From contig CM059625.1 in NCBI GenBank assembly GCA_030435675.1, forward strand, positions 17,670,001-17,734,000: a DNA stretch of 64,000 nt. Direction: 5' to 3'. The notes under the pieces are model-generated. The model saw nothing but the letters and a program-made list of their open reading frames with translations. It did no database searches and was not told the DNA's origin. Source of the DNA: Steinernema hermaphroditum (taxonomy: Eukaryota; Nematoda; Chromadorea; Rhabditida; Steinernematidae). Shown piece after piece: positions 3,582 to 32,313 of this stretch; within the stretch, counting starts at the first letter, position 1; every line of letters begins with the position of its first letter. The position numbers were made by a program, and so were the translations under genes.

Positions 3582-3597
3582 CTTCTTTAGGCATAAA

Positions 3598-3800
3598 TCC
3601 GTTTCAACCGTCCCCCTAGATTTCAACCGTCCCCCCTGAGATTTCAACCGTCCCCCATTGCTTTCAACCGTCCCCCTGAGATTTCAACCGTCCTCTTTGA
3701 GATTTCGACCGTCCCCCTGGGATTTCAGCCGTCCCCCTTGCGATTTCAACCATCCCCTCTGGGATTTCGACCGTCCCCCTGGGATTTCGACCGTCCCCCT
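3598..3800. repeat. left-arm tandem array, ~10 units of 20-21 bp
   Basis: Successive units read as variants of ATTTCAACCGTCCCCCTGAG, with scattered substitutions such as TTCGACC, TTCAGCC and CCATCCCC. The unit sequence is the reverse complement of the array at 8406-8645, so the two arrays can pair as one long hairpin. Confidence 0.9.
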
Positions 3801-3979
3801 GTATTAACGAAATTTTAATAATTTTCATATAATTAAAATTTAAAAAATTAAAATGAAATTTTCAGAATTTGAATATCACTAAAAATTCATTCATAAACTC
3901 TCGGGTAGATAATGTGGCGTCGGCTAATATGGCATCGGTATAATGTAAAATGCAGAAACTCCAATTTTTATTAATTATC

Positions 3980-4500
3980 GATTTTACACGATTTATCTTC
4001 CCGAATGAACGGCTTACGCCGTGCAGGACGTCTCATATATGCACAAAGAAGAACATAGTCACACCGTGGTCGCTGATTTTCTTCTGATTTCGGTGGAGCA
4101 GACGAATCCGAATAGAATGCAGCGTTCCCATTAGTTTGCGCGGGCATCGAAGTCGTGAAGAGCTGATTCCGGAAGTGGAATAGCGGTGGAGCTGAGCCAA
4201 CAGAGCGGAGAGTCATCTTCGGCTCGGCTAGCGCCGTGGACTTCGGAGTTCCAACGCTTCTTCGGCTTCTCTGGTGGCGCGGGTGGAGTCGGGCGATCGT
4301 GACGGGCTTTTTGGCGAGACGGTGGAACTACGGCTCCCTGGTGTTCCAGGCCTTCTGGGAGCCGGGGCTATCATTGCGCCAACAACGACGGCCGAGAATG
4401 ACTGCTCACTCAACTCATCCGAGCGAACTCAGACAGCCTCAGAGAGAGAGCGAGCGAGTGGACGACCCGACCGATCGCTGGGGGCACAAATGAAAGCATG
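3980..4500 (-). mobile_element. ~520-bp retroposon (copy A), flanked by 12-bp direct repeats
   Basis: This stretch is roughly three-quarters identical by eye to 49742-50239, including the shared core TCCCTGGTGTTCCAGGCCTT. It is bracketed by a perfect 12-bp direct repeat TTATTAATTATC (3968-3979 and 4501-4512). The other copy has a different flanking repeat, as expected of independent insertions with target duplications of variable length. Read on the minus strand it ends in an A/T-rich tail with a polyadenylation-like motif, so minus is the likely sense strand. Short open frames exist in both directions but are not conserved, so I see no coding function. It may be SINE-like; no clear pol III A/B boxes were found. 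Confidence 0.7.
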
Positions 4501-4969
4501 TTATTAATTATCATATTAATTATATTCATTTTTATTCATTTTCACTAGTTATCTTGGATGGTAAGTGTATCAATTGCAAGCATACAACGGAATAAATCCC
4601 TGGTCATATGTTCCTGCACGGACCAACATCCAGGCTTGGCTTAAGCTTAGTCTTATGGATAGATTTATTTTTTAAATACATTTTAAATTGGTGAAATAGA
4701 TTTTTTAAATATGTTTTTAAATAGATTCATTTTGTATTTTAATTTTAAACACAAGCAAGATGGACGTGTCCTGGTGATCATAATAATCAAGAGGACGAAC
4801 CGCTGTTCTTGACATTGTTCGAGAAATACCTCGAATTATAAATTATAATTTATAATTCTGACATTGCTAAAATTCCATTAAACTTCCGTGTTATAAATTA
4901 ATCTTGCAACACCTGATATTCTGAAAATTTCATTTTAATTTTTTTTAATAATTTTAATTATATTAAAAT

Positions 4970-5319
4970 TGTTGTACGCGCGCACTCGGGGCACCAATGT
5001 TGTACGCGCGCACTCGGGGCACCAATGTTGTACGGGCGCAGCCGTACGAATGTGAGGGAAACCGGGGGAGAAACGACGAGAGGGTTGTCCGACGAGACTC
5101 CGGTGACAATTCCTGTGCGTGGGACGCGGGGCACGACTTAGGAAAAACACTTTATAACCGTCCACAAGGGAACGATACCCGGTTAATACAACAAGAACCA
5201 CCCAACTGAACAACAAGCCCAATACGAAAATGGAACGCCGCGCGGATGGCACTCGCTCGCACGGTCGGGGTTACGGTACAGGGGCTTCGTGGTGGGAGCC
5301 CGGGGCGTCATCTTCTACA
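4970..5319 (-). repeat. 3' LTR of the gag-protease element
   Basis: 350 bp and nearly identical to 8034-8383. Its plus-strand left end carries the 30-bp-period repeat of the motif CTCGGGGCACCAATGTTGTA. It is the downstream LTR because the element is read on the minus strand. Confidence 0.9.
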
Positions 5320-5333
5320 CCTCCCCCTTCTTC
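5320..5333 (-). other. polypurine tract
   Basis: The minus strand reads GAAGAAGGGGGAGG directly before the downstream LTR. It is all-purine, as expected for the plus-strand DNA primer of an LTR retrotransposon. Confidence 0.8.
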
Positions 5334-5420
5334 GACGAGAAGCGTCCTCGCTTCGGTAGGCTTGACGGTTATCTAGAAACATGTAAAAAGAGAAAATTGA
5401 GCACCAACTAGGCTCCAGGA

Positions 5421-6269
5421 TCACTGTGACTGTTGAGAGGCTGTTGATCTGCGTGTTTTGGTTCGTATGCCATTCGAACGTAACCAATTTGCTTTGTTTT
5501 CGCAGTGCACCTTTGCGCCTGCAGAGCTTTGTGCACGTGTAGGCTGCTGCCTTATGTCCTGTTTCGGCGAGACTCGTGGATGAGCGGCGTCGATGAATGC
5601 GCTACTTGCATTGCGCCAGCGGTCAGCGATGGCTCGCTCAGGCTCTTTGTGAGGATGCCGTAGTTTGGCGGGAAAATGCCGTTTCGTTTCCTTCGATGGC
5701 GGCTTGTGCGCGTTGGATGTGGCAGTTACAGCGGAAACTGCTGCTGACTGTTGTTCTGTCTTCGCGATGAGCGGAATGAACTCGTTATTGAGCTTGTCAA
5801 CCAGCATGAAACCAAGGCGCGACAAAATATCTGTGCCAAGCAGTACATCATGACCGAATGGGTTGGCGGTGACGAAGAATCGTGCTTCTTGGCTCTGTCT
5901 GTTTGCGTAATTGAGCTGCACGTGGACGCATCCTACGTGGCTCTGCTTGCTCCCGTTTGCTGTGTGTAACTGCGCGTCGTTTGCGATCAGTTTTACGGGT
6001 GTGTCTGTCTGGTTTACGAGCTGCGCGTAAAATTTAGACGAGATCAAGCTCACGTTCGCGCCAGTATCTATCAAACCGCGGCAAGTAATATCGTTGATTA
6101 CAATGGGCAGCGTTGGCACGTAACCAAGCCTGGAATTTTGCCCTTCGTCCTCTCCACTGCGGAGACTGCCAATGTAGTGTGCGCTGCTTGCTTGCGCTTG
6201 TCTGTCTCTGTCCTGTCGCTCATCGTGCGGGCTATTAATGTGACTTCTAGGCACCGTTGGAGGCCGCAA
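5421..6269 (-). CDS. retrotransposon aspartic protease (pro)
   Basis: A 282-codon frame with a retropepsin domain at about residues 45-165. The catalytic triplet lies in GLIDTGANVSLIS, and the second conserved strand is VLLGTDILSRLG. The remainder is basic, low-complexity sequence rich in Ser, Gln and Lys with no zinc-binding or RT motif. It begins 23 nt before the gag stop and lies in the +1 frame relative to gag, so the protease was probably made as a gag-pro fusion by +1 frameshifting. The stop comes about 100 bp before the downstream LTR, leaving no room for polymerase domains. The frame is unbroken, consistent with a recent insertion. Confidence 0.85.
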   Translation of the reverse strand: MRPPTVPRSHINSPHDERQDRDRQAQASSAHYIGSLRSGEDEGQNSRLGYVPTLPIVINDITCRGLIDTGANVSLISSKFYAQLVNQTDTPVKLIANDAQLHTANGSKQSHVGCVHVQLNYANRQSQEARFFVTANPFGHDVLLGTDILSRLGFMLVDKLNNEFIPLIAKTEQQSAAVSAVTATSNAHKPPSKETKRHFPAKLRHPHKEPERAIADRWRNASSAFIDAAHPRVSPKQDIRQQPTRAQSSAGAKVHCENKANWLRSNGIRTKTRRSTASQQSQ

Positions 6270-7680
6270 CCTGCTGGATCGTCGACTGATCCCTCAAACG
6301 CTCACTGCTGTTGTGTCTAGGACTCGGAATACGGTTGTTCCCGTTTCCAGTGTTTCTCCAGTGCTGTTCGCCTGGGAAGCGGTGCGCTCTGGGCTGGTTC
6401 GATGTGTAGCGATCGACTGAATCGTTGTGGAACTGGCGCGGACGCAAGCAGTTAAGTTGCGCTTCGATCGCCACTGTCTTTGCCACTTTCTGTTCGAATG
6501 TCAGACCTTGTAGTGCTACGACTGCGGTCACTAGATACGTGTTGTTTAGGCCTCGCATGAAGTAATGATCAAGCAAGTGTTCCATGCTGATCTTGTCGGA
6601 GCTCGGGAATGCACTGCGAACAGTTTTGGCGATGCGGTCGCTGTAGCTAGCTACCGTTTCATTCTGCTCCCTGATGATGCCGTTTGTCAGCGCCTGCAAG
6701 GCTTCAATGCGCTCTGTGCTGGCTTCTGTGATCTGCTGCGTCAGGAGAGATCTCACTGCGTCGTACTGATCGGTTCCAGACTCGACGAGGTCGCTGATCA
6801 AGCGTTTAGCGCGTTGCTTGCACTTTGTACGGAGTAGAGATACGCGTTCCGCGTTCTCGCACCCGACTGTGATCTCATCGAAGCGCCGAAAGAACTCTTT
6901 CAGGCGGCTTGTGCCTTCATATCCAGTAATCGTTTCCACTGCTTTCAGCCTCTCGATCCGGATGGATGCTGCTTGAAGGCTGATGAGTGTTGCCAGCTGA
7001 TTGTTGACGTGATCATTTGGGTCTGTTCCCATGAACTGCGGCGCGGCGGCCGGATGATGAGGGACAGAACGTACATTTAACTGGGGGTGTGGAGCAGGTG
7101 GATTTTCGAAAATCTGTGGGTGTTGTGAGCGCCGAGCGAATTGCTTAGTCGCTGGTCGCTCTTCCTTGACTTGTTGCGGCCATGCGTGAGTAGCAGCTAC
7201 GCCATATGCGTTCTGCAGCGAGGCGGCATTTTCGAAATGTGCGTAATGGTAACCGAAAGCAGGGTTAACCTGGTAAGCAGCGGTGTTGTGTGGAGCTAAA
7301 CCGTGTGCATACGTTGGCACGAACGGCGTGGGTCCTGGACGTGATCCACAAGAAGAATTATGACTGTTATTCTGGCTAATGTGCGCCATTTGGTTGTAGG
7401 ACTGTGCCTGTTGTGGAGTACGGCTTGCGTTTGTTGGCTCTGGTGCGCTGTACCGGCTGTGTGAGTTGTTAGCACCGGCGGCGCGGCGTTTTGCTAACTC
7501 CTCTTCTATCTCTCGGAACGAGTACTTACTCAAGTTCGTGCTCCTTGAGACGTTCCAGCTGTTGTTTTCTGATGCATGCGCGGTTTTGTTCATGGCGGGG
7601 TGTGGTCCGGCCATTTGTGCCTCGTCCTGCTTGCGGTTTGCCTCTTCCACAGCTTTGTGGATAGGTCTTTCAGCTCTCAT
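6247..7680 (-). CDS. retrotransposon gag-like structural protein
   Basis: An intact 477-codon frame. The first ~200 residues are polar and rich in Asn, Pro, Ala and His. From about residue 235 comes a helical segment (ITGYEGTSRLKEFFRRFDEI and following) resembling capsid regions of Ty3/gypsy- and BEL-type Gag, ending around LNCLRPRQF. The tail is basic and Asn/Arg-rich. No CCHC zinc knuckle is visible, so RNA binding may depend on the basic tail. The next frame (protease) starts inside its last codons in +1. Assignment rests on position between the LTRs and general Gag character, not on a diagnostic motif. Confidence 0.75.
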   Translation of the reverse strand: MRAERPIHKAVEEANRKQDEAQMAGPHPAMNKTAHASENNSWNVSRSTNLSKYSFREIEEELAKRRAAGANNSHSRYSAPEPTNASRTPQQAQSYNQMAHISQNNSHNSSCGSRPGPTPFVPTYAHGLAPHNTAAYQVNPAFGYHYAHFENAASLQNAYGVAATHAWPQQVKEERPATKQFARRSQHPQIFENPPAPHPQLNVRSVPHHPAAAPQFMGTDPNDHVNNQLATLISLQAASIRIERLKAVETITGYEGTSRLKEFFRRFDEITVGCENAERVSLLRTKCKQRAKRLISDLVESGTDQYDAVRSLLTQQITEASTERIEALQALTNGIIREQNETVASYSDRIAKTVRSAFPSSDKISMEHLLDHYFMRGLNNTYLVTAVVALQGLTFEQKVAKTVAIEAQLNCLRPRQFHNDSVDRYTSNQPRAHRFPGEQHWRNTGNGNNRIPSPRHNSSERLRDQSTIQQVAASNGA

Positions 7681-7698
7681 GGTTGACGCGTATTTCCG

Positions 7699-7990
7699 GG
7701 ACTGCTTGGAGTCGCTGTGGATAGTCGCGTGCAGAGTGTGCTGGAGAATGCGTTTCCTTTGGACTGCGTGGAGTCGCTATAGGAGGTGACGCAATAGAGA
7801 TTGGACGGGGTCGCGAGCTTGCTAATATTGACCCTTGGACTGCGTAGAGTCGCTGCGGGTGATCACGCGGACGGCAAATACACGAGCGCGGCTGGAACTT
7901 ACAAGTGTTACCCCTATGGACTGCAAGGAGTCGCTGGAGGGAGATCACACGTTGCAAACAAATAACGCGGGAGGCAATCAGTCTCAATTC
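7699..7990 (-). repeat. four diverged ~60-80-bp repeats in the retrotransposon leader
   Basis: The plus-strand motif GGACTGC(N)4GAGTCGCT recurs at 7699, 7761, 7837 and 7918, followed each time by a related GATCACGCG-like segment. Spacings are 62, 76 and 81 bp. The array occupies most of the untranslated leader between the primer-binding site and the gag start. It could be packaging or translational structure; that role is inference. Confidence 0.75.
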
Positions 7991-8015
7991 CGTATCGGCC
8001 GACGGATAATCCGTA

Positions 8016-8032
8016 CCGATCTCGGGGCACCA
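8016..8032 (-). other. tRNA primer-binding site
   Basis: The minus strand reads TGGTGCCCCGAGATCGG one nucleotide inside the upstream LTR. The leading TGG pairs with a tRNA 3' CCA. I could not assign the primer tRNA with confidence. Confidence 0.75.
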
Positions 8033-8033
8033 A

Positions 8034-8383
8034 TGTTGTACGCGCGCACTCGGGGCACCAATGTTGTACGCGCGCACTCGGGGCACCAATGTTGTACGGG
8101 CGCAGCCGTACGAATGTGGGGGAAACCGGGGGAGAAACGACGAGAGGGTTGTCCGACGAGACTCCGGTGACAATTCCTGTGCGTGGGACGCGGGGCACGA
8201 CTTAGGAAAAACACTTTATAACCGTCCACAAGGGAACGATACCCGGTTAATACAACAAGAACCACCCAACTGAACAACAAGCCCAATACGAAAATGGAAC
8301 GCCGCGCGGATGGCACTCGCTCGCACGGTCGGGGTTACGGTACAGGGGCTTCGTGGTGGGAGCCCGGGGCGTCATCTTCTACA
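8034..8383 (-). repeat. 5' LTR of the gag-protease element
   Basis: 350 bp and nearly identical to 4970-5319. It should carry the promoter, as the element is transcribed on the minus strand. Its interior-facing end contains two extra tandem copies of the LTR-end/primer-site junction sequence. Confidence 0.9.
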
Positions 8384-8405
8384 AAATTATTAAAATGTTA
8401 TTAAT

Positions 8406-8645
8406 CTAGGGGGACGGTTGAAATCCCAGGGGGACGGTTGAAATCCCAGGGGGACGGTTGAAATCTCAAGGGGGACGGTTGATATCCCAGAGGGGACGGT
8501 CGATATCCCAAAGGGGACGGTTCAAATCCGCAAAAAAGGGGGACGGTTCAAATCCGCAAAAAAGGGGGACGGTTCAAATCTAGGGGACGGTCGAAATCCC
8601 AAAAAGGGACGGTCCAAATCCCAAGGGGGACGGTTGAAACGGCTT
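8406..8645. repeat. right-arm tandem array, ~11 units of 20-22 bp
   Basis: Units are variants of GGGGGACGGTTGAAATCCCA, including two with an extra poly-A (CCGCAAAAAAGGGGG). It is inverted relative to 3598-3800. The A/T-rich sequence just inside (8384-8405) is also inverted relative to sequence just inside the left array. Confidence 0.9.
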
Positions 8646-8659
8646 TATGCCCTTCTTTA

Positions 8660-11885: not shown

Positions 11886-14800
11886 TCAGAACTTGGTGGG
11901 AAAGTCTTCGTCGCTGTTCATGTAACTGAGTGCGTCATTTTCATTTAGATCGTTATCCTCGTCTTGACCCTGTTGTGAATAGTCCACGTATTCATAGTAG
12001 AAGATGCTGAGCAAAACAAATATTCCAATGACGATGACCATTGCGGCAGCGAAGACAAACATTATGATTGCCTAGAGGATAATTGCTCATCTTGGTTGCT
12101 GAAATCATGCACATACCAAATTTTCGATCTTCACAATTTTATCAATGATGATTATGATAAGGTCACCGAAAGCTACGGTAAACCACCAGATAGCAGTAAC
12201 GACAGATTTGAGCGATGGAGCTGCTTGGCTATAACTGAACTCGAGGCCAGTAATGGAAAAAAGGATTTCAGCAGCAGTGATGATTACGTACTGTGGCACT
12301 TGCCATAGAATACTGACATGGTTTCTAGGCACCACAGTGTGTACGTTAAAGACGCTGGTCTAAAACATTTCTCAGAAGTGAAAACATCTACAGGAACGTC
12401 GCATTACATCACTGCTACTCTTCAACGTTCCATTTTTAGCTATTGTCAAAGTATACACACCGCCTTGACCCAGAATACTGAGAACTACCCCTGGAATGGG
12501 GTACACTTCCAAATCGTCCTTACTTGGCGTTCGATCTCCGTCAGGCTTCAAATAGCGCACATAAAACAGCTGGTACCTAAAACGCAATTCGGATAGGCGT
12601 CACATAAGAAGCTGAATCTGCTAAAGAATGAAATCACCCATTGTACTTACAGTCCAGCTTTGATATCCTTGTGATTGTAAGCCGTCCCGTTTGACAACGT
12701 TCCGTCTTTTGCGCGAATAGAAGAACGCGCAGCTTCGTTTTCTTTCCAAACATAATATTTCCTAAAGAACATTAAAAGCTCGTGATTTATATGGAGCCGC
12801 ACCGATTTCTAGGATCGCAGTAAGGATTTTCCGAGAACTCGCACGCCGCAATACGACCTGAATAAGAATTCAATTCTGGCGTCCTTGATGCGCTGCATCC
12901 ACTATCCCAAGTGACATTCGGTGGAAGGAACGTGCAAGGGAGCAAAAGGTTTAAACTAAAATTATCAATTGTGCACCCGCAGCCGTTTGGTAGCTTACCT
13001 AACACTAGACTCTCCCTCTCCTTCTTGGGGCTTTGCCAAATTCGATGTGCCCGTGAAGACACCCTGAGGTGTTGTTGCAATGAAGTAAGTGTTCCCACCA
13101 CTTATATTTACTCCAGCATTCAACGGCGCCTTATCGTAGCCAAAACAGCCAGTTCCAGAATATGTGAACTCAAATTTTATCTCGTCTTTTGTGCTCACTT
13201 TAAAACGAAAGAGTTGTTGAATGTCATTCACTTTGTCATCCACAAGCGACTAAACCACAAACAAACTTAATAGTCGGTGACTATTAGTGTTAGCTTACTT
13301 GATTGGCAAATACTGCATGGTCTTTTCCTCTTGCAGATACACTGACGTTGCACTTTTCGAAAACGTTGATCACTGAGACAAAGCCCATGTTATCAGCAGG
13401 AATGTCGGGAAGTGTTTGCTAAATAATAAAGTACCGATAAAACTATGCTTGGGGGTGATTATTTATTTGTTATGAAGAAATACTTACATTCACTTTGAGC
13501 TGAACAAATCCGCAAACGGCGAACGAAAGAGCGGCCAACAGACCGCCTGCAACCATTCTTCTTAAAGGCCTAAATGATCATATTGTTATTATGGAAATCA
13601 TATTGTGCCATTACGTTGTTCGGATCCCACATTTCTCGACAAGGGGATACACAAACGCTTGAAATATCGGGATAAACGCCAAGATCAGAATCGCATTCAA
13701 AACACCCATCTGATCTGGCAGCAAATTGTAGCCATTCCAGATCTCAGAATCCATCTCGACGGCTTGGATAAGCCATCGAGACCCCTAAACATGCACGTCA
13801 GCTGTTATCTCTTTTGTACTACCTGTTGATCGTAAAGCGCCCAGAACATGGGAACAGGGAGCATCATGACGATAACGCGTACAAGCGATTTGCAGTCGTC
13901 GGCAAATTTTTGCTGCGCGCATTTCTCTCCAAGGCGCTTCCCCTTAACGGCCAATGCGAGACACTTGGAGTCGTGCTCACACAAATGACCATCCAAATAA
14001 TGGTCTAACCAGTGCTCACGGCGAATGTGCCTCCTTGTGATCTTGTTGTAGATTGCCTTCTAAAAAAGGCATAACAATGCGACAGGTGATTAACCTACGC
14101 AAATAGCTTTAAAAACCCGTGCGATGATGTTCTCCTTCGGAGGAACCTTTTTGTAGAAAAATGAACCGAGAACGAAGACGACTAAATGCACACTTTTTAA
14201 AAATCTGATCATATCTGGTTGCGTACCCGTAGAAATAACCATTAGAACGGCTGGAATCCCAAACGCTAGTGGGTAACAGCTGTCGTGACCCATACACGGA
14301 ATTGCTAAATTTTTTAAATCAGGTAAATATTGCGAAATGCGTACTTCTAAAGAATGGGGTGATGAACATGGAGATCGTGGAACCCGCATTAATGGTGAAA
14401 TAGAAAACAGAAAAGAAAATTGAAATCATGACTACGTAGTGAGCTGGAAATTGGTCAGCTCCAAAAGCCGACACACATGGTTTAATTCCACCGGTTCCTA
14501 GACCTATAATGAAGAGGCCAGCCAGGTCCAGCCAGGGATGTAGGTGGTTTGCTTTGTCAAATGTAGATGCCACTGCCAAAACGACATTTCCGCAAGCGTA
14601 TATTAATGATAAGGAGAAGATAGTCCTGAATGATGCTTTTACAATATCTGCTTGTGAACATTTGTAATTACCAAAACTTTCCGATATACCCATCGGCGAT
14701 GATAGATCCAATCATCGGGGATGTGAACGCAACAACAGTAAATGCGTGATAGAGAATAGTTGCGTTATCGTTGCTGAACTGGAGGATATTGATCAAATAT

Positions 14801-15522
14801 AATGTCAAAACGGCTAAAGCATTCAGTAACACATCGGCTTCATTATTCGGTACCACTCACATCTCATGCCGTAATACGAGAAGCGCTCACAAAACTCATT
14901 TCCAATGATACAAAATGTTGCTTTGGGCCATTGCTTGACTCTTTCTTTGAAGCCCTGCAATCGCAGTCAAATCACTTTTACGCAGCTAAAACGAACTGTA
15001 GGTTCCGAATCGAGGTCTTCTGATCGATGGCTTGGAATAGCGCCATTTTGGAAGTTGGATAAAACGCCTGCAAGTGCTTTCGCTAGGTAAGGTATTGATT
15101 CGCTGTTAAGAGATCACGATTTCAAAAGGAATCACAAGACGATTTGGCATTTAGGGTTCATTAAGTTCCAGTCTTTATCAGTGTTCGGTTTGCTATTTGG
15201 TGAATCGTTGAACTGTTAAAGTGTCGACTGTGTTGAATAATAGAACACGATCAAAACGACTCGATTGAATTCAAGCCCTTTGTTGGACATGTATTTTTTA
15301 GATGACTATCATGTGTCTTTTGTAAATTTAGACTGAGTTGGGTAAAATATTCAAAGGGGAATAAGTGTTTTCAGAGATTTCGTAGCCAAAATGTGCAAAA
15401 GAACGGAATGTGCTGTCTGCTAATAATTGTGCTGGAACCCAACTGAGCAACTGACAACGTTAAATTAACTAACCTTTGTCATCCGAACTATCTTTCTTCA
15501 TCCCGATGCGGTTTCCGTTCAT
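11886..15522 (-). CDS. oligopeptide:H+ symporter, copy 1 (SLC15/PTR2 family)
   Basis: A multi-exon minus-strand gene for a 12-TM proton-coupled di/tripeptide transporter of the plasma membrane. The start chosen is ATG at 15522, in an exon just after an AG acceptor with a short leader, as in the other copies; it encodes MNGNRIGMKK. Exons 1 and 2 (15522-15474, 15067-14997) join in phase. Exon 3 carries the PTR2 ExxERFxYY motif in NEFCERFSYYGMR. Later exons carry GTGGIKPCVSAFGADQF, FSVFYFTINAGSTIS and FWALYDQQ. A large Cys-containing extracellular loop precedes the last TMs, and the tail is acidic (NSDEDFPTKF then stop). Introns are mostly short. All expected family segments are present, so it looks functional. 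It is the most downstream of three tandem copies. Confidence 0.9.
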
Positions 15523-15539
15523 ATCAACTCCGAAGACCT

Positions 15540-16908
15540 AAAAACAAGAAGTGGAATATTTATCGGTTAAAGGTAAGCCTGTAGTGCACACGAAAGTGAG
15601 ATTATATGAATACGAGTCATGTGTGGCGTCTGCATTATATAAACATAGACATCTGATGAATAGGTGACACGGAAAAACAAAAGTATTGTTTGCTTACTCG
15701 ACGTATTGAAATGTTTTTAAATACATCACGCCCCTTACATAGAAAACGTCGGCTTCTTTCCGTTGAATTATCCTTGAATAATGAGTACTGGGGAAGGTCC
15801 TGTGCAGCCTTATGCAGAGATCACGATCAGAATAAATTTCTAAACATTGATCGGTTCAAGTGCCCTTTGTGAAAAATGAACAACGACTGAACAGGAAAAC
15901 TAGGTGCATAGAGGTGATAACAGCGCCTCAGCTGATGTAATGGGCCATAAAAGTTCCTATCTTTGGTCATCACTTTCACTTGCAACAGGAAGACTCAAAA
16001 AGATATAATGGATAAATCGCCAAGAACGAACGGAAAATGCACATAAATCAAGAAGGGGCAAGCACAACGTCACCGCAGCCGAACCGCCGATGCTGTATCC
16101 ATAAACAGTGCTTCCGTTTCAAAAATATTGTTAGAAGACTGAAGCTATTTGATCTTATCATTTGATTGTCACCAACTATACCGAAGATTATGACACCTTC
16201 ATACACTCGTGGATTGTACTTCGCTCTTCATTTTTCAATTGTGTGTACTTTTTGTACCTATAATCAGCACAACTTATACAATCTATTTTAAGTTTGTTGC
16301 TTCACTTTTTTTTCATAACTGAAAAGTGGTAAACATCGAACAAAGATTAAGTTGTAAAGAACTCTAATCCTTTTTTTTTATTTTAGACCCTTCAGCACAT
16401 TCTTGCAGCAGTACGGAATGCTCAGTTCACGTCAAATCTCTTTAATTACCCGGACCATAAATACTTGAATGTACAAAGTCTTACGTTATGATGTTCTGGA
16501 TTGCATCAGCGAGTCACAAGCGTTTCAGTCGTGAAAATATGACTGGGCTTGTATTAATTAAAATTAAAAGGCATAGAATTGTGACGTGCAGCTCATCAAA
16601 GAGTGATAAAATCATGTCGATACTGGTACGAACCGAGCCTTTTTCGATCGCCAGACCAACTAAGTGAATTTCAACTGAATGCTTTATGCTTCCTTGAATG
16701 CTTTATGCTTCTTTTTCATATAGTACAATTGATGGCAATCAGACCACAGTCATAAGAAAACTATGAATGGAATGACGTTTTTAAAATCACTTGATAATCT
16801 GTACAAAGTACTGTGAATACAATAATTCTAATGCAAATAATACGCACTGCTGACAGTAATTCGAATCGCACCAACGCAATTTAAACATTGTCAGTTCGTT
16901 TGTATGTG
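15540..16908. other. upstream region of transporter copy 1
   Basis: No coding exon recognised. A GATA-factor-like site (minus strand TGATAAG) lies at 16154-16160, about 630 bp before the start codon. Intestinal peptide transporters of nematodes are commonly under GATA control; a role here is inference. Confidence 0.4.
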
Positions 16909-16916
16909 AAATTTTG

Positions 16917-17388
16917 GGCTCTATTAGGGAGAAGTGACCAAAACTATACCGATCTTGACAAAACTGTATCGATTTTGACAGAACTATACCGATCTTGACA
17001 GAATGGTATCGATCTTGACAGAATGGTATTTATTTTGACAAAATGGTATTTATTTTGACACAATGGTAATTATTTTGACAGAATAGTAATTATTTTGACA
17101 AAACCACATTTCACTGACAAAACGTTCTTTAATCTTTAACTACTACAAAGGCTGATTTATGATTTTGTCAGTGAAATGTGGTTGTGTCAATCTAAATTCA
17201 GTTTTGTCAATCTAAATTCAGTTTTGTCAAAATAAATACCATTCTGTCAAGATCGGTATAGTTTTGTCAAGATCGATACAGTTTTGTCAAGATCGGTATA
17301 GTTTTGTCAAGATCGATACAGTTTTGTCAAGATCGGTATAGTTTTGTCAAGATCGGTATAGTTTTGGGCACTTCTCCCTAATAGAGCC
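16917..17388. mobile_element. compact foldback element, 472 bp, with 8-bp target duplication
   Basis: The ends are inverted repeats (GGCTCTATTAGGGAGAAGTG on the left, its complement on the right). An 8-bp direct repeat AAATTTTG flanks the element exactly (16909-16916 and 17389-17396). Both arms consist of tandem ~20-bp units related to AAAACTATACCGATCTTGAC, with variants toward the middle (AATGGTATTTATTTTGACA). A central segment around AACCACATTTCACTGACAAA is inverted on the other side, so nearly the whole element is one hairpin. No coding capacity. Architecture and duplication length match the element at 3590-8651, though the repeat sequences differ. Confidence 0.9.
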
Positions 17389-17396
17389 AAATTTTG

Positions 17397-19058
17397 AACC
17401 CTATTATATATGGAGGGTTGTGATAACACTGACAATAAGTTGATTAGGTACGTAGCAATCACGATGTCCATTATGGGCACTTCACAGCAGTTACTAAGTG
17501 CTTGATTCCAGCGATCATAATCACACTTTCAAGCAATAATCAGCTTTGTGAGCTAGATAACGCATACACTTCAGCTCTATTTAAAAAGATATTAATATTC
17601 TACATATATAATCTGTGCAACAGGCACTACGTAAAAAGTTAGCAAAAAAAAACTTAAAAAGTTATAAGTAAAGGAAGAAACTATTTAATTGATCTACACA
17701 AAATAATCTGTAAAAGTGTTGAAAAGAAGTGAGTCGTTGTGAGCATTGTTTATAATCGATGTCGGCGAGTTTGTCCGAATTGAAACCGTATGTAACGACT
17801 AAAATAATCCGAATCACATAATATATATACGATTATTAGTCGTATCGGCAAAGGGCGAAACACATTGAACTATGTCAGAAGCAATGGTCACCACGGGTAC
17901 GGCAAGTTTCGATCGCTTACGGCCAAATAATGGAAATCGTATAATGAATATGCACTGTTCTTCTTCTACCCATAAAAAAAGTTGACAGATTCAGTGAAGA
18001 AAATTAAACCTTTTACTGCCGCATAGAGTATTCAGAAACAAAACCTACAAAAACAAAAGCTCTCATCAATAGAGGAAACTCATGATTATGGTTGAAACAC
18101 AGCAGAATGCATCACCATACGGTACTTCGATATGCTAGTCAAGATTACCGACACGCCGGTTGATTTTCTGATAAATACTACGGAAGGTATTCTGACGCTT
18201 TGCGACTATTACAGGTATTACTTATGATATCTGTATTCAGTTCGCCGCGATGTCCTCAAGCCAGAAATCAAAATGTTTTAATCATCGAGCACTGGTCATC
18301 TTTTGATCCACTCGAAGACGAAGCATCAGTTCACTCGTTTCGGCGATATTAATAGTTGTTAGCCTGTCGTCGTTACAAGAAGAGATTTATATCAAGAAAA
18401 AGCTGCGAACGAAGCACGTGATATCCATGCGAGTACATTGCTGTTTTATTTGTGCGCAGTAGTACACAATAGTGCTCAATAGTCATCTCTAGACTGGTTC
18501 TTTAGATTTGTAGCAGTCGCGTTTGTTCCTAGTCAAAGGACAAATACATTTCGATTGCGTTCTTAACTTTTATTCCGATTTATATTAATTAATTTATATT
18601 AAGCGGATCTCATCGTGTCGGACGATTAGTGGAGCGCCGTTCTTCTCGCTTGGTTCTGCCTTGCTTGAGCTCTTAGCGTTTTCTTGATTTCGGCTTGCCA
18701 TCTCTGGGTCGCCCGATTGGTCTCGAAGCAATTGGCCTCCACTTCGTCAGGCACTTTGTCCATTTTTCTTCACCATCGCTCGCGAGTTTTCATGCTTACT
18801 TCATTTTCGTTTCTTTGAAGCTTTCGCAAGGTCTGCAACCTTCATCACGCCGCGCCTGTCAAGCAGACGAGCGGCGAAAAGAAGTCGAATGACTGGCGGC
18901 GTGGCGAAGTGTTCGGTTGCGTTCACCTTAACTAAGAATAAGTGCGTCGCTAAATAGGTCCTTTATGTCTTATTTTTTTGTTTTATTGTTTCGTTATATA
19001 TATTCAATCTGCCTCGTTGACTACATATGTGGACAGCAAGGAAGCACCCGTACTCTTA
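17397..19058. other. intergenic between transporter copies 1 and 2
   Basis: No exon recognised. A 65-codon plus-strand frame near 18695 has no motif or splice support. The right part should contain the 3' untranslated region of copy 2. Confidence 0.45.
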
Positions 19059-22000
19059 TTACAACTTTGTGTGCTCTTCTTCCCCGCAGTATTCGTACGA
19101 AAAATTGTCGCGACCTTGTACATTATCCTCTTCGTCGTCATCTATCGTCGAGTAGTCAACGTAGTCGTAGTAAAACACACTAAGAACCACGAAAACTAAC
19201 ATGATTCCCAGCATCATGCCAGCGTAAATAAAGAAGATGATAGCCTTAAAAGCAGACGTTACTTTTTGTAGCCGCGCGATGAAAGTTACCAGATTCCTCA
19301 AGTCGATGATAACATCAAGTAGGATAATAAGCGTGTCACCAAGAGCAGTGGTCAGCAGGAACATGGCGGTCACGACGGACTTGAGAGACGGTGCTGCTTG
19401 TGAATAACTGAACTCCAAACCAGTGATCGAGAAGAGAATCTCAGCCGCGGTAATCAAAACGTATTGGGGAATTTGCCACAGGATACTTATGTGATTCCTG
19501 GGAACGACGGTATGGAGATAGAAGATGTTCTGCAAAGTTCGTTCAGGACCTTCTCTTTGCGCTAGCGGTCATACCTTAGCAGCTGTATTGTGGAGGTCTC
19601 CGTTTTTAGCCATAGTGTACGTATAAACGCCTCCTTGCCCAGTGATGTTCAGGTAAACGTCGGTTATCGGGTATGCAATCAAATCACTGCGTGCTGGACT
19701 GCGATCGCCCATGTAATGCTTGTACTTCACGTAGAACATTTGGTACCTAAACGTCGCATAAGCATTGCTGCTCTGAAAGCAATAGCTCACATTCCAGGCA
19801 TGATATCTTCATGGCCATAGATGGTTGCGCTTCGAGTTGCATTGCCTGATGCTAGTTCACGTATTGCAGTGGCATCTCCAGCTTTCCATGTAAAGAAGAG
19901 TCTGAAATGATATTATTACAGGAATGACTTTAACTATAGTTATATGTGTATATGCGGCGATATTGCGTGCAGGTAATAACTCGTACAGTTTGCGAGTTTT
20001 CTTAAATGGATGCCAGTTCTAACACAGTGGTAGATGGGCAGAACAGATGAAAGAAGTATTTGTGGCATGTACCTGTTTCTGCCATCACAGTGAGGATCTT
20101 CCGCGTCAAACTCACAAGCGGCAATCATGCTGGTGTAGGAAGTTTCATAGGGTGTGGTAGAACTTTTACAGCCGTCGTCCCAGTTGACACCTGGTGGTAG
20201 ATTACCACAAGATAGCAGTAAGTTCACACTGAATTAACCTTGAATATGATATTTCGAAACCACGCACATACCTCACACTGGACTGTCCTTCTCCTTCTTG
20301 CGGCTTATCCAGCACGGAGCTGTCGCCGACTATACCTTGTGGTGTTGTGGCAATGTAGTAGGTCTTTCCACCCTCCAGAGAGAAACTATGCGAGATACTT
20401 GAGTAACCGTAACATTCAGCACCCGAGTAATCGAACTTGAATTGAACATCTTTCTTGCTTCCAACATCGAGACGGAAAAGCTCGTGATATTTCAAAACCT
20501 TATCGTCAAGTAGGGACTAAATGGAGATATAGAATTAGAGAGGGATTTATGAACTTACACTGTTGGCAATAATGTACTTGTTAATGTTGTCGGCGGTTAC
20601 ATTTACGTTGCAGTTGGGAAACACATTGATCACAGAGATAAAAGCAGTGTTATCGGCAGGAATATCAGGAAGAGTTTGCTAAAATCCTTCACGTTTTAAG
20701 CACCTCCGATCACTACTCACATTTACGGCGATCTGAACAAATCCTGACACTACAAAAGTGGCGGAAGCCAGGATTCCTCCGGCTGTCATTCGTCGGAGAG
20801 GACTAAAACGAGCGAATTTTCGCGTATCATATGTCACGATGAACATACGTTGTTTTGATACCACATTTTTCGACAAGAGGATAGACGATACCTTGGAAGA
20901 TTGGGATGAAGCACAAGATCAGTACGGCGTTAAAAAGGCCCATCTGCTCCGGAGGCATTGTAAAGCCAGGCCAAATTTCGGAATTCATTTCGCATGCTTG
21001 GAAGATCCATCGTGTACTCTAGAAAACAAAATGAATAAATTGACTAACGAACTTAAAATATATTTCAGGCAGGACATGGATAACGAATAAAAAAAATAAA
21101 AGTAAAGGAATGGAAAACAAAGTTCATGTCGGTTTCGTTGGTTTTGATGAAATGGAGCTCGCAGAAAACACGCAATCCGTGAACTCGCTAAGATCACAAA
21201 GCACATGTTGGAGTGGACTGAACCGTACATTACAAGCCTCCACATTCTGGCTTATCTTGCACACGGTGTTATAGTATGATGGCGCAGTTCAAAGACCATT
21301 CACGTATTGAAGGAATTTTTACTTGAACGGGCTCTTTCAGCAGGAATGCCCGGCAACACCAAAAGTTATTCTTGAGAACATCTAATTTGATACCGGTCGA
21401 ATGTAGAGAAATACGTGAGTTTTTATAGTTATTTTTCGCTGCGTTTCGCCGCTCCGTCCATACTCACATTACGAGCACTCGAGAATAACTTTATTGTATT
21501 GCCTAATACTTCTATTAAAAGAGACCTTTTTTGCAATAAAAATTTGGGAGTCTTTGCGAATCAGGAGCTTACCTGTTGATCGTAACAAGCCCAGAAAATG
21601 ATCATCGGTACCATCATGACAGCCACACGAACCAACGACTTGCAGTCATCGGCGAATTTCTGCTGGGCACATTTTTCTCCGATCCGCTTCCCTTTAACGG
21701 CCAACGCGAGACACTGCTCATCGTTCTCGCAGTTGTGACCATCGAGGTAGTGGTCCATCCAATGTTCGCGCTTGACGCTTTTCGTAATCATATTGTAAAT
21801 GGCTTTCTGAACATGGCAATAAGTATAGACGCCTATTCTGCAAGAATCATACAGAAATCGCTTTGGCGACCTTGGCGATCACATTTTCTTTTGGGGGAAC
21901 TTTCTTGTAGTAGTACGATCCGAGCACAAAGATGACTAAACGACGATCCTGCACAAGCATTTGAGTACACCACTTACCTGTAGAAACAACCATAATTGCA

Positions 22001-23061
22001 GCGGGAATGCCGAACGCTAGAGGATAGCAACTGTCGTGGCCCATGCAAGGCATTACTAGAAATTAGTTCTTACTGGGAATTAAAAAAATTTGTCTTGCCT
22101 CTAATTCGAGGAGTGATGGCCATAGAAATCGTCGATCCAGCATTGATGCTAAAGTAGAAGACGGAGAAGAAGATTGAGATCATTTTCGTGTAATTCGCAG
22201 GAAACTGGTCAGCTCCGAATGATGAGACGCACGGCTTAATGCCACCGGTTCCGAAGGCGATCATGACCAGGCCCGCAATGTCGAGGTAAGGGTGAACTGA
22301 TGCGCCTGCGTCAAAGGACGCACTAACAGCGAGTACAACATTTCCAGCTGCATACAAAATCGAGATCGACAAAATGGTCCTAAATGATGACCGGTACCAA
22401 GCTGTGTGTTGCTTCGACATACCAGAACTTTCCGATATATCCATCAGCCAAAATGGAGCCAAGGATGGGAGTAAAATAAGCAAGACTGATAAAGGCGTGC
22501 GTTGAAATTGTGGCTTGGTCAGTTGTCTGCTTCAGGATATTGACAAGATACAAAGCCAGAATGGCTGAAAACAAAATTTTACTAATATCTTACATATCGA
22601 CGCTTACTTCTCATTCCGTAAAAGGAGAACCGCTCACAGAACTCATTTCCAACAATGCAGAATGTCACTTTCGGCCATCTCTTTGCAATTTCTCCCCATG
22701 TCTTAAATAGTTCTCGGTAAACATATACCGAATATACGAATTTACTTACCTGCGGTTCAGGATCGTTATGATCGGCGCGACCTTTTTCAAATTTTTCCAG
22801 CGAGTCTAAAAGAACACGTTACGATCGTTTTTCCTCTGTAACAATCGTCAGGAGATGGGTCGGCATTCAGTGTTTACTTCATTTTTTAAAAGGTCTTTGC
22901 TTACAGACTTCAGTAATCGCCGTTCCAGTTAAAACCTATCAAATTATCTCACTGAGTCTTCGGCGTAAGTATGCCCCTAATGTTTAAGCGAACTCACATT
23001 CGTCAAATCCATCGTTTCTTGTCACTGCTACTCCATTTGCATCGTGCCTCTTGGCAGTCAT
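19059..23061 (-). CDS. oligopeptide:H+ symporter, copy 2 (SLC15/PTR2 family, diverged)
   Basis: Same family and exon plan as its neighbours. The start is ATG at 23061 (MTAKRHDANG), just after an AG acceptor. Exon 1 ends in phase 1 and joins in frame to the exon coding SLEKFEKGRADHNDPEPQ. Family segments include GTGGIKPCVSSFGADQF, FSVFYFSINAGSTIS, the Cys-containing extracellular loop and a tail rich in Asp/Glu. Two conserved motifs are changed: ExxERFxYY reads NEFCERFSFYGMR, and TM7 reads FWACYDQQ followed by STRW where copy 3 has FWALYDQQ-GSRW. A 45-nt intron at 19289-19245 is a multiple of three with no stop, so its retention would only add 15 residues. Introns in the middle are longer (about 540 bp near 21035-21570). 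No stop or frameshift was seen. Confidence 0.88.
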
Positions 23062-28000: not shown

Positions 28001-31000
28001 TTTTGGCCACTTCTTGAGCATCTCTTTGAATCCCTAAACATATAATGTGAGTAATAGATTAAGTCATGGTTGCCCTACGTGAGGTTCGGGTTCAAGGGCA
28101 TTGTGTTTTACAGGTGCCACAGATTCGCCATCGAAGCTGTCCAACAGGCCTAAATAAAGAACTTAGAAATGGTAAATACAAAATGGCTAAATGCAAAACC
28201 TTGTCTTTCCTGGTCAGGCATTTTGAAAAACACCGATCACAGCGATCTTGCGGAACTGTTAACTGGACGGCAGCAAGGGCCCTGAGTACCCGGACAATGA
28301 CTTATCAGGAAAGGGACAGCACCAACCGACTGGAAGGGGCAGTGGTCAGACCGATTAACTGTAAACGAGGGGTTATCAGCGGCTTTTTACAACGATGGAC
28401 ACTCGTTTGTCAAAGAATGAGAAAATCAAACGCGGTGTCTGCTATTTGCCAATGGAAAACTGACCATCCCACCGCCTTTAAGGCCCGATCATAAGATAAG
28501 AGAAAATTGCACAAATAGCGAGGAATCGTAAGGGTCAAAGTTTAAAAAGTGTTTTCAAAAAGGGATGCGCACCCAAAAGGAAGGCTACCCAGCCGATATA
28601 AGTGCACTGCCATCGACTGGTTTGGGTCACATAAACAAACGAGGGGTGAGTCACAGCGGCGGACAGTTAGTCAGCTGTGATTGCGCATCGACTCATTCGG
28701 CATGCGGCGACTATCCGCAAGTCAGAAAGTGCAGCGCGGTCTACTATGCCCCGTTTCAGAGATCACGCGTCTCGGCAGAATGGTCGAAAACAGCGCGCTC
28801 TAACACACTGAGCAGCTACTGTATCGCTTATCATACAAAACGCTCACACACCGTAATGCAAGGTCTTGTTCACTGTAATCCGGGTTCGTTACAAAAGGCG
28901 GAAAATAGCTCCGCTTATGCGGGATGCAAATGTCATAGGTGCAAGTAGTTGCAAGCCCTATCGATCCGATCAGAGTCTCTTTGTCTGGTGCGCGCACTTA
29001 AGGTGCAGGTGGAATTCGCACATAAGTGATCGAATGGATTTTTCAATCGCGTCCATTGGCAGTTGCTGACCAGCGATTGCGGAACTGGAGATAAAATGCG
29101 CTGCAGATGGGTTGGACGCAGAGAAACAGAAAAAGATTTGGGCTGTTTTTGTATGTTAAAATATGCTTTCGAAAGGAATGTGCAATGCGTTCATTCACTT
29201 TGTGGCATCACTTTTCGGAAAACATGATCTTGCTGTTGCTTTGTTAAAAAAGACATTGCCAATATGTAGGCTTTAAGTGGTAAAGCTCGAATACGAACAC
29301 TCTTCATTTAGTCCTTCAATCTTGACATTCCCGCATTCGGACATGAATTCTATCTGTTTAATGCATACACTGTTATCAGCTTGTTGTTACAGGACAAAAA
29401 CTTCCCGCGACTCCGCTCCCTTTTTGGTACGTGCGTTCTAAATGTATGTAAATCATCCAGTATGGGAACCACTGGAAAAAAGGAATTCACTTCAGAATGA
29501 TATTTACTTAAACCCACACTCAGGAATGATAGCGGTAGGCAAATAATGATTCGCATGATTTGGGCAAATAGGAACTATTATATGGAATAAATCAAGAAAA
29601 CAATAAAGCAAATTAACGGCAAATCAGAATTTACCTAGGTCATCAATTTTATGTAATTTATATTGTGTTGTTCCACAATTAATGTCGACTACTATAAATA
29701 TCCCTGATTTTTGCACTGTTCAGCCCTTGGGGGGGGGGATGGATTACTGTGTTGTTGAGAATAGGAAATTCTCACACCACATTTTGATTAACCGCTTGCT
29801 CATTGCATTCTTCCTGATTTTAGAGACCTATAATATCTTGAAGGTTCCTAACCTGGTACTTCGACATTGGGAAATGCATTATTATTTATAAAAATGCTCG
29901 AACGTGAACCACGTTTTTCCACCCAGTAGCGCGAATTTTTTTCGCGCGCACTGTCGGGCTCCTGCCGACAAATCCGAAGCAATAGCTCATTGTTGAATCA
30001 GCTAAAACCTGCAAGATGTGCTTTATGCCAAAGGCTTGCGGAAATCCCCTATATATAAATGGAGAACCGACGGGTCCGTTGGTCTGTTTGTGTGTGTGTG
30101 TGTGTTTCCGTGAGCACGGGGAAAACACCCACACAAAATAAGGACCCCGAGGGGAACCGAACCCGGCACCGCCCGCTTACAAACGAAGCACGTTCGCAAT
30201 GAGCCACACAAGCAGTTGAGATGGAAGCACTATACTTCCAATATATCTCTGGGGACGCAAGGCTTTGCGTTTCTTTACAGTTTTTGTGCCGTTTTTAGCG
30301 TATTTTTTAGCTTTGCAGTTTTTTGGACAACTTCAGCCATTTGCATGAGCACCAATCTTGCCGCCCGCATGGCTATGGTGTCTTGCCGCCCGCAGGGCTA
30401 TGGTGTCTTGCCGCCCGCAGGGCTACAGTTTTAGGCCCCAACTTCAGCCCTATCCATGAGCACCAATCTTGCCGCCCGCAGGGCTATGGTGCCTTGCCGC
30501 CCGCAGGGCTACAGTTTTAGGCCTCAACTTCAGCCATTTGCATGAGCACCAATCTTGCCGCCCGCATGGCTATGGTGTCTTGCCGCCCGCAGGGCTATGG
30601 TGTCTTGCCGCCCGCAGGGCTACAGTTTTAGGCCCCAACTTCAGCCCTATCCATGAGCACCAATCTTGCCGCCCGCAGGGCTATGGTGCCTTGCCGCCCG
30701 CAGGGCTACAGTTTTAGGCCTCAACTTCAGCCCTATCCATGAGCACCAATCTTGCCGCCCGCAGGGCTACAGTTTTAGGCCTCAACTTCAGCCCTATCCA
30801 TGAGCACCAATCTTGCCGCCCGCAGGGCTATGGTGTCTTGCCGCCCGCAGGGCTACAGTTTTAGGCCCCAACTTTAGCCCTATCCATGAGCACCAATCTT
30901 GCCGCCCGCAGGGCTATGGTGCCTTGCCGCCCGCAGGGCTACAGTTTTAGGCCTCAACTTCAGCCCTATCCATGAGCACCAATCTTGCCGCCCGCAGGGC

Positions 31001-32313
31001 TATGGTGTCTTGCCGCCCGCAGGGCTACAGTTTTAGGCCCCAACTTCAGCCCTATCCATGAGCACCAATCTTGCCGCCCGCAGGGCTATGGTGCCTTGCC
31101 GCCCGCAGGGCTACAGTTTTAGGCCTCAACTTCAGCCATTTGCATGAGCACCAATCTTGCCGCCCGCATGGCTATGGTGTCTTGCCGCCCGCAGGGCTAT
31201 GGTGTCTTGCCGCCCGCAGGGCTATGGTGTCTTGCCGCCCGCAGGGCTACAGTTTTAGGCCCCAACTTCAGCCCTATCCATGAGCACCAATCTTGCCGCC
31301 CGCAGGGCTATGGTGCCTTGCCGCCCGCAGGGCTACAGTTTTAGGCCTCAACTTCAGCCCTATCCATGAGCACCAATCTTGCCGCCCGCAGGGCTACAGT
31401 TTTAGGCCTCAACTTCAGCCCTATCCATGAGCACCAATCTTGCCGCCCGCAGGGCTATGGTGTCTTGCCGCCCGCAGGGCTACAGTTTTAGGCCCCAACT
31501 TTAGCCCTATCCATGAGCACCAATCTTGCCGCCCGCAGGGCTATGGTGCCTTGCCGCCCGCAGGGCTACAGTTTTAGGCCTCAACTTCAGCCCTATCCAT
31601 GAGCACCAATCTTGCCGCCCGCAGGGCTATGGTGTCTTGCCGCCCGCAGGGCTACAGTTTTAGGCCCCAACTTCAGCCCTATCCATGAGCACCAATCTTG
31701 CCGCCCGCAGGGCTATGGTGCCTTGCCGCCCGCAGGGCTACAGTTTTAGGCCCCAACTTCAGCCCTATCCATGAGCACCTAATTGGCTTTTAGTACCTGG
31801 AGGGCGCGAATTCGCGCGCAGCCGGGTTTATAACTATTAATGGCCAATCATCTGCGCCAGAGTTATCTGTACACAGACACCATTGATAAAAGTAACCGAT
31901 CTCTTGTCCAACCACATGTTTGATTCACAAACCAATTTAATGGAATACTGTGGGTAGATTTGATGCGCGGGTCTTTCGGACTGGTATGTGATCGCAGGAA
32001 TCACAATTTGAGTTTTGCCCCGATGGGTATTTTTGAACCATCAAGATACACAGGGCCAAGTTCATTGTTGGTATACTCAAGATAGATGGTTCAGCAGTGT
32101 GGGCGTCAAATGCGTTCGAAATAGATCTTCTTGCTACATACGAAAAACGATAAAGGCTTCCAGCGCACGCATCTTACGGTTAAACAACATTTTGCTTACC
32201 AGTACATGACACTTTTAAACGGTGCGAGGAATAAATCGAGCTCCTATGAGATAAATAAAGAAATTAACAAAGCACTTACCGCGGTTCCGGCTCCTCACGC
32301 TGTCGCCGTCCAT
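25050..32313 (-). CDS. oligopeptide:H+ symporter, copy 3 (SLC15/PTR2 family)
   Basis: Thirteen coding exons join without a phase error and give 836 residues, close to the length I recall for C. elegans PEPT-1. Exons by minus-strand borders: 32313-32280, 28149-28079, 28033-27517, 27472-27395, 27353-27271, 27219-26983, 26807-26638, 26597-26516, 26468-26337, 26289-25781, 25736-25562, 25517-25275, 25229-25050. Motifs: NEFCERFSYYGMR (proton-coupling TM1), GTGGIKPCVSSFGADQF, FSVFYFTVNAGSTIS and FWALYDQQ-GSRW (TM7). Exon 10 encodes most of the large extracellular loop between TM9 and TM10, with several N-glycosylation sequons. The tail is acidic (EENGGYEEVDESVKL). Exon 1 (MDGDSVRSRNR) is separated by a 4.13-kb intron carrying a repeat element. 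Expected role: di/tripeptide uptake at the gut apical membrane (family knowledge). Confidence 0.93.
30135..30212 (-). other. degenerate tRNA-like segment
   Basis: On the minus strand, GGCTCATTGCGAACG resembles a D-arm/A box, GCTT-CGTTTGT-AAGC an anticodon arm, and GGTTCGGTTCC a B box. The anticodon loop lacks U33, and the acceptor and T stems do not pair properly, so this is not a functional tRNA. It may be a tRNA-derived promoter of a SINE or repeat unit. Confidence 0.4.
30340..31790. repeat. minisatellite with unit lengths of 61+25n bp
   Basis: The landmark CAATCTTGCCGCC occurs at 30353, 30464, 30550, 30661, 30747, 30808, 30894, 30980, 31066, 31152, 31288, 31374, 31435, 31521, 31607 and 31693, and a truncated one at 31779. 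Spacings are 61, 86, 111 or 136 bp. The difference is the number (0-3) of 25-bp inserts GCCGCCCGCAGGGCTATGGT plus GYCTT inside a fixed 61-bp frame. Units are nearly identical, indicating recent amplification or conversion. The frame stays open on the plus strand for stretches, but this follows from the repeat and is not a gene. Confidence 0.95.

Follow-up and report, generated by a model that had tools for sequence, protein, structure and literature searches.

The 472-bp foldback element at positions 16917-17388 of the window (by which we mean the whole 64,000-nucleotide stretch of Steinernema hermaphroditum DNA that was analysed) is, judging by its termini and by the transposases of its longer relatives, a member of the Merlin superfamily of transposons, not of hAT. 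The element is best explained, with fairly good probability for both parts taken together, as a deletion derivative of a longer Merlin copy whose arms would be arrays of phased transposase-binding boxes. What is new here is the occurrence of a foldback architecture in Merlin; that architecture itself is already known.

The element is bordered on each side by a perfect 8-bp target-site duplication, AAATTTTG (16909-16916 on the left and 17389-17396 on the right), and its limits agree with those given in the first-pass annotation. Its left terminus, GGCTCTATTAGGGAGAAGTG (16917-16936, plus strand), recurs in inverse form at the right end (17369-17388, minus strand), and each end begins with GGC, in keeping with the 5'-GG-3' termini of Merlin. 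The left arm (16934-17122, plus strand) contains ten boxes, starting at 16934, 16955, 16975, 16995, 17015, 17035, 17055, 17075, 17095, and 17114, of which the first is GTGACCAAA, the last is CTGACAAAA, and those between are TTGACANAA. The right arm (17163-17371, minus strand) contains eleven, from the outermost GTGCCCAAA at 17363-17371 to the innermost CTGACAAAA at 17163-17171. The ~20-bp tandem units previously described in the arms are also detected by TRF, as 20-bp arrays on the left and on the right. In one register, 198 nt of the arms pair at 81%, separated by 82 nt, and in another 184 nt pair at 84%, separated by 40 nt. The short tandem units of the arms make up most of the length of the element, as in the foldback architecture of Galileo, Tm1, and Tetris. 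Folded as a single DNA strand, the element reaches -158.4 kcal/mol, a value attained by 0 of 100 dinucleotide shuffles (mean -40.2, sd 3.7). The window copy contains no frame of at least 70 aa, and is located between two minus-strand POT-transporter genes. These form part of a tandem set of POT (PTR2) peptide-transporter genes on the minus strand at 14319-22483, with PTR2 start exons at 14319-14711 and 22070-22483 and, in the gene next to the first, a late PTR2 exon at 19059-19535, all on that strand. Elsewhere in the window, a long array that mixes units of 25, 61, and 86 bp (beginning TCTTGCCGCCCGCAGGGCTATGGTG), many of them near-identical, occupies 30328-31779, and short-period repeats of 9, 15, and 18 bp that resemble a low-complexity coding stretch occupy 56909-57181.

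The proposal that the element belongs to a mobile family is supported throughout the 90.6-Mb genome, where the 20-base terminus is found, with up to three mismatches, at 125 places (61 in forward and 64 in reverse orientation), against only 2 + 4 for a control in which the pattern is reversed. The element is therefore not a unique assembly artefact. The 22-base spliced leader of nematodes has 265 exact occurrences in this genome, in keeping with its nematode origin. From 100 of the 125 places, 34 convergent terminus pairs were picked, and perfect 8-bp duplications coincide with the termini in 28 of these, as had been predicted for other copies; identical 8-mers occur at 1 of 4769 randomly shifted boundary pairs. 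The pairs with imperfect duplications match at six of eight letters in L028, four in L029, one in L044, five in L046 (a shifted near-match), and seven in both L048 and L053. L028 is omitted from later family counts, leaving 33 copies with perfect duplications in 28, while a pooled count of 42 of 47 is not an independent rate, as it includes two copies of the other window element's family as well as 12 sister elements that were chosen for having a perfect duplication. Single ends L062-L066 (forward) and L052 (reverse), for which no partner with up to five mismatches occurs in the stretch read, stand outside every pair count. The duplicated sites match the palindromic consensus GAAATTTC at 4.08 of 8 letters (38 sites) and flanking 8-mers match it at 2.14, a difference that is overstated since the consensus was drawn largely from those same sites; the resemblance suggests a target preference. 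Among the matches listed for family loci, none involves the 500-bp flanks of the window copy.

Two long members were considered as autonomous copies and rejected. L028 (4266 bp; duplication 6/8) encloses a frame that by eye resembles a Mutator-type transposase, and the extra length of L027 (3659 bp) holds a long frame that by eye is of the LINE endonuclease/reverse transcriptase type. L027 is a family copy containing a LINE-like insertion, and L044 contains a fragment apparently related, again by eye, to the end of that insertion; both copies have served as landing sites for other elements.

The superfamily assignment is based on where transposase domains lie relative to terminus pairs. The Merlin domain DDE_Tnp_IS1595 (PF12762) is matched 36 times in the genome and the dimerisation domain of hAT (PF05699) 77 times. 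The positions of these matches were compared with 68 terminus pairs, comprising the 34 pairs of the window element's family and 34 pairs of a closely related sister terminus beginning GGCTCTATTAGCGAATAG. Twenty of the 36 PF12762 matches lie inside these pairs, four in the window element's family and 16 in sister pairs (19 in all on a stricter figure, since the sister pair L061 was located via its transposase), and none of the 77 PF05699 matches does. A further PF12762 match, C2:15378320, lies beside the single end L052 of the window element's family and was left uncounted. Frames of this family in L034 and L054 exceed the Pfam cut-off, and no intact full-length transposase occurs among the copies read. 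The search was also made from the transposase side, by screening the surroundings of the 20 best PF12762 loci for any inverted repeat with an identical 8-mer on either side. Twelve of them (L068, L069, L070, L073, L076, L077, L079, L080, L082, L084, L085, and L086) have GGC termini with an identical flanking 8-mer, and L061, which is outside the best 20, likewise has GGC termini. The termini of these 13 loci begin with GGCTCTATT at both ends in ten and at one end in L061, with L069 and L070 differing (GGCACTTATT). Of the remaining best loci, L067, L071, L078, and L083 have sister termini with duplications matching at seven of eight letters, and L072, L074, L075, and L081 yielded no terminus pair. 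Outside relatives are represented by nine proteins, each containing PF12762.

A zinc ribbon at the N-terminus of the transposase, hinted at by WRCxxC in several frames, was considered and rejected: a genome-wide search that ignored introns gave no match to PF12760 (Zn_Tnp_IS1595) over the cut-off (best E 0.235), and a CPKCG peptide in L030 is at most a putative part of the transposase. L069 and L070, which represent another Merlin family, are both 1036 bp long, have TIRs of 105 bp that are 100% identical, and differ in their 8-bp duplications (CACCGCTA and AAAACTGG); this family looks recently mobile. Internal tandem repeats of 12 bp (GAGCCCGAAGAG) and 15 bp (CGCCATGGCGGCATG) are present in the longer Merlin copies L033-L037, L068, and L073, in coding-like stretches, both in the window element's family and in sisters.

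The origin of the short hairpin can be read from its loop. A 75-nt loop stretch (17111-17185, plus strand) is whole in 13 of the 33 family copies, the window copy included, at 94.7-100% identity. It contains a junction at 17149/17150, to the left of which window positions 17081-17149 align with element positions 85-153 of L029 at 97%, and to the right of which 17150-17210 align with positions 1987-2047 of the same copy at 87%. L029 is a longer copy that retains a PF12762 remnant with one stop inside, and the two halves of the loop are split in L057 as they are in L029. Because the halves are apart on both of these copies, the shared junction shows that the 13 hairpin copies stem from one internal deletion of a longer Merlin copy. 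The loop is not whole in the short copies L040, L048, and L053.

These 13 copies constitute a natural experiment, in which the same loop and ends are combined with arms that differ mainly in unit number, and the steps of arm evolution can therefore be counted. Between terminus and loop lie 74 to 294 bp on the left (omitting L027, at 3321 with its insertion) and 83 to 280 bp on the right. Left lengths equal 14 modulo 20 in 10 of the 13 copies and right lengths equal 3 modulo 20 in 11, so that 21 of 26 arm lengths keep one 20-bp phase, with residues that were taken from the data themselves. Five arms are out of phase, namely those of L042, L039 (by one extra base), and L027 on the left and of L041 and L044 on the right, with L027 and L044 containing foreign sequence. 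The earlier suggestion that the arms evolve by units is thus borne out, whole units being gained and lost. Left and right arms vary independently of each other, as in L039 (235 and 103), and it is the middle of the arm that varies, with little change in the outermost 38 bp or at the inner ends. In L042, L049, and L027, the last unit of the left arm is, by eye, the usual inner-end unit of the right arm, a resemblance that points to exchange between arms.

Each unit comprises two parts that differ in conservation. An iterative profile recovered 434 units (87 distinct) in the window element's family, in which the 9-bp box TTGACANAA is near-invariant and the other 11 positions are more variable, and 99 units (44 distinct) in sister families, in which the near-invariant box is GGCCAAAAGT, with its first G less strict. 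Since profile parsing is biased towards units that have the core, 21 in-phase arms were also cut every 20 bp without reference to any motif, giving 115 pieces, 38 of them distinct. Off-consensus letters in the distinct phase-cut units amount to 29 of 342 (8%) at positions 1-9 and 132 of 418 (32%) at positions 10-20, although the division is not clean, positions 14 and 18 of the spacer being invariant and position 7 of the box variable. The spacing of successive cores is 19-21 bp in 390 of 407 cases for the window element's family and 87 of 92 for the sister families, and L076, from a further Merlin family, has the core GTTGCCGGAA at 20-bp steps, with two spacings only. At 60 of 66 ends, the box that follows the terminus is GTGACCAAAA, which resembles the sister box more closely than the inner boxes do.

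From these observations, the following mechanism may be proposed. A longer Merlin copy with arms of ~20-bp units lost the interior that holds its transposase in a single internal deletion, as the shared junction shows, and the resulting short hairpin reached sites with the different 8-bp duplications now seen around its copies, presumably through cut-and-paste by a transposase provided in trans. In each arm, near-invariant 9-bp boxes alternate with 11 more variable base pairs and recur, on the parsed sequences, every 20 bp, a step of about two helical turns that would place the boxes on one face of the DNA. By analogy with Galileo, the boxes are most likely secondary transposase-binding sites, at which transposase may assemble before the ends meet. 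Because such units are interchangeable, the arms gain and lose them whole, in the length steps that are observed, and probably pass stretches from one arm to the other; slippage, unequal exchange, or conversion may be the cause of this turnover.

The same Merlin deletion derivative may instead carry units that are a satellite-like by-product of slippage and unequal exchange with no binding role, box conservation then reflecting inheritance and homogenisation. Unit number, which varies widely across copies that have moved, appears free to do so, and tandem repeats occur inside some Merlin copies elsewhere (PMC8101967). Perfect duplications are found in L082, despite TIRs of just 40 bp, and in L040, despite a left arm with 0 units in the profile, which argues against a strict need for inner boxes. 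Homogenisation, however, would be expected to act alike on box and spacer, against the unequal proportions of off-consensus letters given above for distinct phase-cut units, and the 19-21-bp spacing is retained by families whose boxes differ. We regard this explanation as unlikely, though deserving of serious weight.

The retention of spacing under a change of box leads to a more specific, and tentative, version of the binding-box model, which we consider possible but would not back at even chances. Phased arrays of boxes about one turn long, recurring every two turns, may be the Merlin end signal in this genome, with the geometry conserved and not the sequence of the box, which is TTGACANAA or GGCCAAAAGT in the two groups above, GTTGCCGGAA in L076, and perhaps TTTCAACCGTCC in the other window element; the hairpins would then be box-rich decoys that titrate transposase. 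The same pattern bears on a different explanation, in which the hairpin is kept or tolerated through RNA (read-through dsRNA or small RNAs) or through a host factor that binds the boxes. The great stability of the hairpin and the adjoining tandem POT transporter genes are compatible with this, but a box that changes between families while its spacing stays is better suited to a co-evolving transposase, and we consider such a role improbable. The hAT-like enzyme proposed in the first-pass annotation, and with it a non-autonomous hAT element, is rejected because PF05699 scores 0 of 77 inside the 68 terminus pairs against 20 of 36 for PF12762; 8-bp duplications suit hAT as much as Merlin and hAT is common in the genome, but the termini start with GG, as given for Merlin in PMC8101967, and the probability left to this reading is close to nil.

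The window contains a second element of similar design, at 3590-8651, with GGCATAAA termini, ~20-bp arm units, and the duplication CTTCTTTA at 3582-3589 and 8652-8659; its enzyme is putative. The two had been described as sharing one design, and the ~20-bp units and 8-bp duplication are indeed common to both while their sequences differ, but this element is not a compact foldback, as its arms of 236 and 270 bp are ~4.5 kb apart. The separation is due in part to an LTR retrotransposon nested inside at 4970-8383, which has 350-bp LTRs (4970-5319 and 8034-8383) that are 99.7% identical and, by eye, AAAT on both sides, and which is probably a young insertion. In this element and in L087, a second copy of its family with the duplication GTGATAGC, 24 of 33 spacings between ACCGTCC cores are 19-21 bp, a period less strict than that of the Merlin families. 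Both copies read have termini that start with GG and duplications of 8 bp, and membership of Merlin is plausible for this element too. The claim that one enzyme mobilised both window elements was not upheld, as their termini share the predicted GGC and little beyond it, their unit sequences differ, and no transposase frame was recognised in the two copies of the other family, whose terminus GGCATAAA has 187 places. A shared hairpin in L028 and L087, hinted at by equal self-alignment numbers, was rejected when no similarity was found.

The Merlin elements (DDE_Tnp_IS1595, related to IS1016) are described in PMC8101967 as having GG termini, duplications of 8 or 9 bp, and TIRs that are 24-462 bp long; the elements here share the 5'-GG termini, the 8-bp duplications, and PF12762 transposases in longer relatives, with no zinc-ribbon match over the cut-off. 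They differ from the Merlin elements described there in arms that consist wholly of ~20-bp box units, the hairpin copies consisting almost entirely of arm. Neither foldback nor MITE appears as a word in the main text of PMC8101967. For Merlin and foldback together a single plant review was listed, and no title or abstract opening in the literature covered, which included few subscription papers, describes Merlin arms of this kind.

Galileo, a P-superfamily transposon of Drosophila, is similar, according to the sections seen of PMC3688188 and PMC3573991, in its long, internally repetitive, Foldback-like TIRs, in TIR lengths that vary with the number of tandem units independently for each TIR, and in deletion derivatives with two TIRs, and its transposase DNA-binding domain was demonstrated to bind sites in the repeats (PMC3688188, in part). 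It differs in its transposase superfamily, in the ~210-bp repeats of its F subfamily against 20 bp here, and in its THAP domain, which is absent from the sequences seen here. Tm1, a Mutator/Foldback element of root-knot nematodes, is likewise a nematode foldback with hairpin and MITE-like members, whose TIRs each contain 1-9 short units. The number of units differs from one TIR to the other, and one end of the unit is the better conserved; its Mutator-type transposase, 9-bp duplications, and commonest unit of 14 bp set it apart (excerpts of PMC3169594). Tetris, a foldback of Drosophila virilis, is also non-autonomous with tandem repeats in its TIRs, but its units are ~220 bp long and seeded satellite DNA, and the abstract names no autonomous partner (PMC4079207, in part).

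Foldback arms in Merlin add a third transposase class to those in which this architecture occurs, after the P-type (Galileo) and the Mutator-type (Tm1), and strengthen the case for recurrent origins of repeated-site arrays in transposon arms. The asymmetry between box and spacer makes the role of foldback arms testable. If the arrays do act as a phased end signal, hairpin copies could outcompete the autonomous copies of Merlin, or titrate their transposase.
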